From: Erythrobacter sp.
GTDB taxonomy: Bacteria > Pseudomonadota > Alphaproteobacteria > Sphingomonadales > Sphingomonadaceae
Direction: 5' to 3'
Assembly: GCA_009993635.1 (NCBI GenBank)
Contig: JAACTC010000009.1
Coordinates: forward strand, 248,001-312,000
DNA length: 64,000 nucleotides
In this document: positions 62,718-64,000 of the stretch, piece after piece
Position numbering within the stretch: the first letter of the stretch is position 1
How the letters are laid out: each line of letters opens with the position of its first letter
Made by a program: the position numbers and the translations under genes
The notes under the pieces: model-generated
Seen by the model: only the letters and a program-made list of their open reading frames with translations
Databases searched by the model: none
What the model was told of the DNA's origin: nothing

Positions 62718-62746
62718 CTTCACATTAAGCGGCAAACGCCTATATA
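62718..62746 (+). promoter_or_regulatory. ssrA promoter
   Basis: CTTCAC (62718-62723) and TATATA (62741-62746) are 17 bases apart, close to the alphaproteobacterial CTTGAC/TATAAT pattern. Initiation is expected near 62752, just before the acceptor piece of tmRNA. Confidence 0.6.
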
Positions 62747-62751
62747 GGTCG

Positions 62752-63105
62752 GTGCCGGTTTCGACCGGCTATGGTGATAAACTGCGGTGTATAATAGACG
62801 CAATGGACCCGGGGGCAGTACCCGGCGGCTCCACCAAAAGGCCCGACCTCGAAGCGAGAGGGGCGGGCTTCCTGATGGGGCCGAACCAGGATCGACATGC
62901 GTTGAAAGGCATCGTTTTTGCCCGGAATGAGCATTCCGTTAAAAGCTCTTTTCACAAGTGCCAACGATAACGAAGCACTCGCTCTCGCTGCGTAATTTGA
63001 TGGGCTAACGCCCTGAACTTACAAAGCTAAAGCGCGGTTGGACCGACCGGGCAACAGAACGGATACCGGGGGCCCGGGGGAGCCTAGCAACAGAATCCCC
63101 CACCT
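62752..63105 (+). ncRNA. ssrA: transfer-messenger RNA, two-piece (permuted) type
   Basis: The acceptor piece comes first and ends in CCA at 62834-62836. An intervening segment (62837-62876) follows, then the coding piece, starting GGGGCCG at 62877. GGGGCCG pairs with CGGCTCC just before the terminal ACCA to make the 7-bp acceptor stem. The tag frame starts at GCC 62960 and reads ANDNEALALAA with stop TAA at 62993-62995. This permuted arrangement is typical of alphaproteobacteria. The 3' boundary is approximate, set after the stem GGGGGA/TCCCCC at 63076-63101. Confidence 0.92.
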
Positions 63106-63195: not shown

Positions 63196-63218
63196 TTATT
63201 TCTTTTGCTCAGTGTTCT

Positions 63219-63241
63219 CACGCAAAGACGCGAAGATGTCG
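63219..63241 (+). repeat. left 23-bp inverted repeat of GxxExxY cassette
   Basis: Begins CACGCAAAGACGCGAAG and is the exact reverse complement of 63643-63665. Bases 63231-63238 can also pair with 63255-63262 (CGAAGATG with CATCTTCG), so the end can form a hairpin that may terminate the gene. Confidence 0.9.
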
Positions 63242-63243
63242 TG

Positions 63244-63648
63244 CTAATGGCGTCCATCTTCGTAATTGTTGACGATCCGCTTCAGGCCATCCTTGAACAT
63301 CGGTTGGCCGAAATTTATCAGCAGCCCGAGTGGCAGGTTCATCAGGCGCAGGTAGGTCAGCACCTGCTTGCCATGGACTGGCATGAGTCGTTCGACAGAT
63401 TTCAGTTCAACGATAAGCCGGTCAGCGATCAGCAGATCGATTATGTAGGCGTTGTCGATGACAACGCCCTTATGCTGCAGCGGCATTGAGACCTGTCTAC
63501 GCAGCGGAATTCCGGCGCGCCGCAACTCCTCGAACATCAAGCGTTCGTATGCATTTTCGAGAAGCCCGGGCCCAAGATCACGATGCAAATGATAGCCGCA
63601 GTCGATAACGATGCCGACAAGGCGCTCGAGTTCGTAATCACGCGACAT
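63244..63648 (-). CDS. GxxExxY protein, PD-(D/E)xK-like
   Basis: A 134-aa protein with the family signature G28-x-x-E31-x-x-Y34 (GLLENAY) and a possible nuclease core with D71 and E81-x-K83 (IVELKS). The family is widespread, short and of unknown role, and has been linked to PD-(D/E)xK nucleases. The start is ATG 63648 in the right inverted repeat. It has no ribosome site of its own; expression may come from readthrough of the upstream gene. Confidence 0.85.
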   Translation of the reverse strand: MSRDYELERLVGIVIDCGYHLHRDLGPGLLENAYERLMFEELRRAGIPLRRQVSMPLQHKGVVIDNAYIIDLLIADRLIVELKSVERLMPVHGKQVLTYLRLMNLPLGLLINFGQPMFKDGLKRIVNNYEDGRH

Positions 63649-63901
63649 CTTCGCGTCTTTGCGTGCGACGAATCAGCGCCACCCGCGCCGCCTTCTCGTG
63701 CTTCAGGCAGTCGAGGATCTTCGCGCCCGCCATGAACACCGCGCCGGTGGTGGCGAGGAACAGCAGCTTGCCGCCCCAGCCGGGATATTGCTCAAGGTAG
63801 CTCGCGCCGCGCGCGGTCGCGCCAAGGGCGAGCGCGTAGATGATCAGGAATGCTTCGAACCGGGTCTTGATGACGAACAGGCGACCGATCTTGCGAAACA
63901 T
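63638..63901 (-). CDS. small membrane protein with insertion-derived C-terminus
   Basis: An 87-aa protein with two hydrophobic segments (FLIIYALALGATARG and LLFLATTGAVFMAGAKI) and basic ends. The last residues (RRTQRREDVA) are encoded in the inverted repeat of the GxxExxY cassette, and its stop overlaps the start of the GxxExxY gene by 11 bases. The original end of the gene was probably replaced. Start 63901 has AAGGA upstream. Function unknown. Confidence 0.68.
   Translation of the reverse strand: MFRKIGRLFVIKTRFEAFLIIYALALGATARGASYLEQYPGWGGKLLFLATTGAVFMAGAKILDCLKHEKAARVALIRRTQRREDVA
63643..63665 (-). repeat. right 23-bp inverted repeat of GxxExxY cassette
   Basis: Exact reverse complement of 63219-63241. 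It contains the GxxExxY start codon and encodes the C-terminal residues of the 87-aa membrane protein. Confidence 0.9.
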
Positions 63902-64000
63902 TCCGGAGACTTCCTTAACGCGTGTAAGCCCGGCGAAACGCAAACCTCATGCCAGTTGAGGGTTCCCGCGCGCCGCGATGGTTAACCGGAAACCGAGTGT
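63902..64000. other. upstream region of the 87-aa membrane protein
   Basis: No gene is visible. It probably holds the promoter for the minus-strand membrane protein; AAGGA lies just before its start. The rest shows nothing clear. Confidence 0.4.

Follow-up and report, generated by a model that had tools for sequence, protein, structure and literature searches.

A GxxExxY nuclease gene enclosed by tandem-octamer inverted arms: a probable minimal mobile element in Erythrobacter and in other bacterial phyla

What kind of genetic unit is formed when a single small gene is held so tightly between the two copies of an inverted repeat that its start codon lies inside one of them? The question is raised by a 447-bp segment near the end of the window, by which we mean the whole 64,000-nt stretch of Erythrobacter sp. 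DNA analysed here (contig JAACTC010000009.1). Here, we compare this segment with related genes and sites in its genus, in its host family and across phyla, and we conclude that it probably belongs to a class of minimal mobile elements so far undescribed, in which a single RecB/Cas4-type nuclease gene is enclosed by inverted arms of tandem octamers. The mobility of a recurrent single-gene element is well supported, and we infer the role of the enzyme from its conservation and predicted fold. The features of the locus are as follows.

62741..63086, forward strand: permuted tmRNA gene of alphaproteobacterial type; cassettes follow it downstream here and in two other genera
63207..63218, forward strand: imperfect outer extension of the left arm, part of a 35-nt pair at 86%
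63219..63241, forward strand: left inverted arm, CACGCAAAGACGCGAAGATGTCG, an octamer-type repeat (CACGCAAAG ACGCGAAG ATGTCG)
63244..63648, reverse strand: GxxExxY gene, 134 aa, PF13366 (2.2e-37) / TIGR04256 (8.1e-38), PD-(D/E)XK nuclease fold
63638..63943, reverse strand: adjacent open frame, listed with 101 aa from a TTG start; its DNA is matched in 10/10 genus genomes
63643..63665, reverse strand: right inverted arm; it repeats the left arm exactly in reverse complement and holds the ATG of the gene
63666..63677, reverse strand: imperfect outer extension of the right arm, part of a 35-nt pair at 86%

The initial annotation described a perfect 23-bp inverted repeat drawn tightly around the gene with no room for anything else, and the coordinates bear this out: the ends (63219-63241 / 63643-63665) are exact reverse complements, the start codon (63646-63648) lies inside the right arm, only 2 nt separate the left arm from the stop codon (63244-63246), and GxxExxY is the single gene between them. 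With the imperfect extensions, the arms form a pair of 35 nt at 86% identity (63207-63241 / 63643-63677) separated by 401 nt. An arm 22-mer occurs twice in the window and never in 100 dinucleotide shuffles, and in the whole genome an exact 17-mer of the arm core is found only at the two arms of the cassette, with two further matches carrying two mismatches; the cassette gene is likewise the sole family member found in this genome. The shuffles, together with the recurrence of arms in the family and multi-phylum sets described below, rule out chance or an assembly artefact. The neighbouring frame at 63638-63943 terminates within the cassette, where the arm region supplies its final codons (RRTQRREDVA) and stop.

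The protein matches its family profiles over the whole domain (129.4 bits for TIGR04256, cut-off 35; 128.4 bits for PF13366, cut-off 22). ExK and QxxxY are the names of motifs of PD-(D/E)XK nucleases of the RecB/Cas4-like kind, and the window protein carries E31, D71, E81, K83, Q95 and Y99. The E-x-K pattern noticed at the outset is E81-L-K83, invariant in an alignment of 21 sequences, and the full catalytic set (E31, D71, E/D81, K83, Q95, Y99) is present in 209 of 219 full-length GxxExxY sequences. Over 30 close pairs of genes the median dN/dS is 0.107. An AlphaFold model of the window protein (pLDDT 93.9) finds its best structural match in 4ic1, SSO0001 (Foldseek E 4e-4; VIA Z 9.0, rmsd 4.3, 105 aligned), which we take to be a Cas4. 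The next VIA matches, at about 5 to 8.1, are restriction-type, Wolbachia CinA/CidB-complex, Hjc and other Cas4 folds, which places the protein securely in the PD-(D/E)XK superfamily without singling out its exact relative; a search by sequence for a solved structure of the window protein gave none that was credible (best E 1.2). On sequence and model together, the protein is a PD-(D/E)XK nuclease with its catalytic set intact, and the gene is under purifying selection. Assignment to a defence system was considered and rejected: the window protein has no match among the PADLOC families, and among 21 members scanned, 12 match RTasPDDEXK and at most eight match any one Cas4-type model, all weakly. 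The literature searched, largely open-access journal papers, yielded no characterisation of GxxExxY, PDDEXK_3 or PF13366, no description of a link between the gene and such arms and, judged by titles, no related match for six arm strings; the remark in the initial annotation that the function of the family is not established thus agrees with the open literature covered.

Do other GxxExxY genes possess such arms? The gene occurs in 91 of 397 genomes of the host family, with one to eight matches each, and in one of the 10 genomes of the genus. Arms were scored by local alignment of the 5′ flank against the 3′ flank, with 750 shifted windows from the same loci serving as controls. The median score in the family set is 22 (128 genes) compared with 9 in the controls, and 106 of the 128 genes exceed the control maximum of 15 (counted from the list). 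A wider scan took one genome per species from 84,980 species and returned 577 relatives; among the best 80 of these 577 loci, which come from many phyla and five of which duplicate the family set, the median is 21 compared with 9 in controls, and a score of at least 16 is reached by 58 of 81 genes but by only 2 of 442 controls. Outside the Proteobacteria, scores of at least 16 are found in Planctomycetales ZRK34, Dolichospermum, Anabaena, a Bryobacteraceae MAG, Stieleria, Flavobacterium, a Chloroflexota MAG and Cerasicoccus. An inverted arm pair lies within 120 nt in 170 of 223 gathered cassettes (a set that leaves out seven duplicates and, at the two-gene loci L085, L171 and L218, the second gene), while the other 53 have no pair at the threshold, some of them being cut by contig ends. 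In one cluster (L100, L108, L127, L133 and L137) the arms are weak and the protein is still conserved, so the protein may be retained for another reason. Neither of the two findings named in the initial annotation as fatal to its reading was made; as regards the first, a lack of the repeat around other members of the family, what most of them share is the inverted octamer-arm architecture and not the exact 23-mer.

The arms are composed of tandem octamers, approximately CRCNRAGR, which differ between cassettes and match within one. Identity at a lag of 8 is 0.529 across 169 arms, compared with 0.22-0.35 at other lags and about 0.29 (0.288) after shuffling, and lag 8 gives the highest identity in 127 arms and lag 9 in 28. 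One genome, G115, holds eight cassettes whose arms are strongly unlike between cassettes and match inside each. Among 67 cassettes from a single recurrent site, discussed below, the two arms of a cassette match at 0.82, and arms crossed with those of the nearest relative match at 0.69 (44 wins, 8 ties, 15 losses; p 2.5e-6 by Wilcoxon test), a contrast that is favoured to some degree by the fact that only cassettes passing the inverted-repeat threshold were compared. Arm similarity in the same 67 cassettes also tracks protein similarity (Mantel r 0.45, permutation maximum 0.12).

Matching arms might in principle be kept for pairing in RNA. The segment would then resemble the intervening sequences (IVSs) of 23S rRNA, with the arms forming a stem from which RNase III excises the cassette, and such excision would explain why cassettes are tolerated in operons and beside tmRNA. 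Size and layout are indeed those of an IVS carrying an S23 gene; the Coxiella IVS is reported to have an S23 ORF in 428 nt with a 28-bp terminal inverted repeat and tandem heptamers (PMC4990558). Many cassettes, moreover, lie between the co-directional genes of the recurrent site. The arm mismatches speak against a stem, since 97 are of sense type and 118 of antisense type, with no preference for G-U on the sense strand; the match is thus better explained at the level of DNA, and an RNA stem was rejected as the selected feature. Arms standing alone are also found in both orientations. We regard excision from RNA as very improbable.

The position of the cassette in the window can be followed in relatives. 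Matches to its flanks are present in 10 of 10 genus genomes, and tblastn gave no match to GxxExxY at the site loci of the nine congeners. Two of these nine have arms at the site, two arms in G004 and one lone arm in G007; G001 and G002 have a two-mismatch core match more than 1 kb from the site, and the other five have none. Inspected by eye, the G004 remnant keeps the first and last codons of a GxxExxY gene between a pair of perfect 28-bp arms, in the opposite orientation, and both of its arms are altered alike relative to those in the window. Beyond the genus, a cassette lies 70-90 nt downstream of the tmRNA match in two other genera, with left arms that differ from that of the window (CTCACACAAAGACACAAAGATGTC in G123, CTCACACGAAGACACGAAGATGT in G111). 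The right arm of the G123 cassette (L080) is, by eye, apparently split by a further short insert, TCCCTTCGACAAGCTCAGGACATGC.

A second site offers larger numbers. Clustering of flanks placed 54 of 211 GxxExxY genes at one junction, which has an acyl-transferase gene (PF00698) on one side and a short-chain dehydrogenase gene (PF13561/PF00106) on the other; the two are read from these domains as putative fabD and fabG. The two genes run in one direction, and many cassettes lie between them. The same clustering also reveals cassettes that share a site but run in opposite orientations in different genomes (L142 compared with the weak-armed cluster L100 to L137 named above; L075 compared with L165). 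The junction was searched in 119 genomes of one genus and 122 loci were read: the gap is 2-16 nt in 28, 43-158 nt in 15 and at least 400 nt in 79. A plus-strand GxxExxY gene is present in 75 of the 79 long-gap loci, with gaps of 456-546 nt except in three (655, 1275 and 1306); these 75 count two genomes twice, and 73 are left after removal. The junction is therefore filled by a cassette in 75 of 122 loci and tightly empty in 28, and a few hold remnants. By eye, L292 keeps the arms and the last codons, L260, L268 and L291 retain nothing but remnants of arms, and two nearby genomes (L243, L254) have different arm types at this same site. In several of the cassettes here, for example L244, the codons for KQPVGLLLNF form, by eye, a GC hairpin followed by a T-rich run, terminator-like, CAGCCCGTTGGGCTGCTTTTGAATTTTT.

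A flank tree (FastTree) of 119 rows, 74 of them filled, requires 19 state changes, at least 15 of them on starred branches, and gains and losses are indistinguishable by this method; the 45 rows scored as empty include the remnants and the long-gap loci without a plus-strand GxxExxY (L272, L285, L286, L302). Although gene and flank distances are correlated (Mantel 0.42, permutation maximum 0.14), the gene tree and the flank tree give the same nearest neighbour in only 18 of 74 cases, and inheritance therefore seems to be mixed with re-invasion. The low dN/dS, taken with the gene-flank correlation, shows that a substantial part of the inheritance is vertical. Empty sites in relatives, anticipated when the segment was first described, do exist at the fabD–fabG junction, where they occur alongside remnants, and remnants are present at the window's own site. 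The alignment of filled with empty loci, which had been expected to give exact insertion boundaries, supplied the empty sites but not the boundaries: the best sister pair (L244/L289) differs beyond the cassette, no exact insertion junction was found at fabD–fabG, and no target-site duplication was seen by eye in the sister groups examined there, the junctions being too diverged.

For arms lacking the gene, a strict three-octamer pattern was run against the 397 family genomes, with overlapping matches counted and the reversed pattern as control. It gave 1203 matches in 108 genomes, some of them the arms of cassettes themselves, against about 24 for the reversed pattern (summed from the table). 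Gene and arms occur together in 69 genomes, the gene only in 22, the arms only in 39 and neither in 267 (odds ratio 21, p 7e-30); the window's own genome is among the 22 of 91 gene-carrying genomes without a strict match. In G115 (116 matches) many inverted pairs stand 45-46 nt apart, and in G074 (91 matches) many stand about 110-120 nt apart, some nested in one another. A 1301-bp G115 query with one hairpin has 75 matches in its own genome, most of them to the repeat and often on both strands of one palindrome, compared with one partial repeat match in the sister species G175 and none in G031, both of which are without a GxxExxY gene. The gene-less arms of G115 are a lineage-specific amplification that is not present in its two sister species.

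The repeat unit in G115 is about 155 bp and has outer GGCC hairpins, which were not seen in the 70 nt beside the eight cassettes of that genome. Insertion of the hairpin into the centre of a conventional REPIN was considered and rejected: a search of G115 for uninterrupted outer palindromes returned none, and with the unit of about 155 bp and cassettes that lack the outer hairpins this leads us to claim no palindrome-centre target. Among the matches listed, orphan arms show a modest resemblance to the resident cassette arms of their genome (0.778 compared with 0.710, 15 genomes, one-sided p 0.036), and among the same matches 6 of the 15 genomes have a resident arm set that ranks no better than 18th out of 36; these figures lend only modest support to the suggestion that orphan arms are cognate to resident cassettes.

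Two further readings must be weighed against these observations. In the first, the arms and hairpins owe their spread to some other enzyme, such as a RAYT/HUH transposase, or to template switching by the host, and the nuclease is a passenger, enclosed by happenstance. The 39 genomes with arms and no gene, the outer hairpins of the G115 unit that are missing beside its cassettes, and the persistence of some cassettes despite weak arms are all in keeping with this. Happenstance accounts poorly, however, for the close flanking of GxxExxY, across many phyla, by arm pairs whose period of 8 is specific to the family, for arms that covary with the protein and for the strength of the gene-arm co-occurrence, and we consider it unlikely. 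In the second, the nuclease is a resident host or defence enzyme, the arms are operators for autoregulation, and the sporadic spread reflects gain and loss by homologous recombination. Purifying selection on the gene and the placing of the 5′ arm at or just upstream of the start would suit an operator, and a candidate parallel is offered by Geobacter metallireducens, where paired tandem octanucleotide elements on opposite strands have been described as presumed regulator sites (PMC2700814). An operator has no need of a matching copy after the stop codon, though, and gene-less pairs, their nesting and amplification in one lineage are not operator behaviour, any more than the internally deleted cassettes that keep both arms. 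This second reading seems to us more improbable still. A mobile cassette is the reading we prefer, and the original suggestion of a very small mobile or mobilised unit is upheld by the recurrent arms, the empty sites, the remnants, the dispersed gene-less copies and the amplification in one genome.

How might such a cassette move? Catalytic conservation, the Cas4/RecB-like predicted fold and the covariation of arms with protein suggest that the enzyme may act on the arms of its own cassette, as proposed in the initial annotation. It would recognise its cognate octamers, probably as paired or cruciform DNA, and may cut at the arms, at the target or at both, after which the segment that the breaks delimit could be copied or inserted by host repair. 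The enzyme would then work on the arms as its DNA ends, in cis for the cassette and in trans for gene-less hairpins. Repeated occupation of the tmRNA-downstream and fabD–fabG sites could reflect homing-like re-invasion by way of shared flanking genes, combined with a preference for intergenic junctions. As to carriage between cells, there is no clear DNA vehicle for the cassettes: GxxExxY is matched in 0 of 50,697 phage records and in 8 of 72,556 plasmid records, a viral-contig collection returned one GxxExxY contig, and the window protein belongs to no PHROG family, so a phage-borne cassette was rejected. On that one viral contig (L388, 1930-2455), arm-like repeats flank the GxxExxY gene on both sides, as judged by eye.

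A comparable arrangement surrounds a different protein. Genes for the PF05635 four-helix bundle are present in 17 of 18 genomes of the organisms, from other phyla, that supplied other loci, and 19 of the 30 listed PF05635 loci (L308-L337) have inverted arms scoring at least 16, against 0 of 120 controls. These arms are tandem heptamers, with a lag-7 identity of 0.782 in 23 arms and a best lag of 7 in 21, a pattern that the Coxiella IVS fits. It is conceivable, although we hold the idea only tentatively and would sooner doubt it than rely on it, that GxxExxY with octamers and S23/four-helix-bundle proteins with heptamers are two branches of one unrecognised, multi-phylum class of minimal mobile elements. 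In such a class a small protein that is not a transposase would read short tandem repeats in inverted arms, the protein family would set the length of the unit (8 or 7), and unexplained octamer or heptamer repeats in Geobacter, cyanobacteria and others would be gene-less derivatives.

GxxExxY is a named, uncharacterised nuclease family of many phyla, and its arms and hairpin derivatives give it a testable biology, REP/RAYT-like in form and with a Cas4-like nuclease. The family may also supply the protein partner of tandem-octamer intergenic repeats that have had no explanation. Heptamer arms at four-helix-bundle genes suggest a more general rule, by which short-tandem-repeat arms would correspond to a resident small protein, and this parallel may help with the long-standing problem of the spread of intervening sequences in 23S rRNA.

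Among known systems, a classical insertion sequence differs in that no DDE-type transposase lies between the arms of the cassette. Cas4 and RecB PD-(D/E)XK nucleases share the predicted fold and the ExK...QxxxY set, and some GxxExxY members have weak PADLOC matches of Cas4 type, but the GxxExxY protein has 134 aa and is encoded alone between its own inverted arms. Free-standing homing endonuclease genes resemble the cassette in that the same intergenic site is filled in some relatives and empty in others; unlike them, the cassette has inverted arms and gene-less derivatives. The 23S rRNA IVSs with S23/PF05635 also consist of one short ORF in a segment of 430-450 nt with terminal inverted repeats. 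They differ in their protein, a four-helix bundle to which GxxExxY is unrelated, in their heptamer rather than octamer arms and in their location, since the GxxExxY cassettes read are intergenic rather than in 23S rRNA, that of the window being downstream of tmRNA. A REP is one palindrome with a conserved tetranucleotide, and RAYT is a Y1/HUH transposase. The REP/REPIN-RAYT system likewise has a small gene in inverted repeats and gene-less hairpin pairs that are dispersed and can be amplified in one lineage, a dispersal that is met in relatives of the window's genome, which itself holds only the two perfect arms of the cassette; in the cassette, however, the arms are tandem octamers and the enzyme between them is a PD-(D/E)XK nuclease in place of a Y1/HUH transposase. 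On the best reading by analogy, the cassette would work like REP/RAYT or a 23S rRNA IVS while belonging to neither, its protein being different from both.
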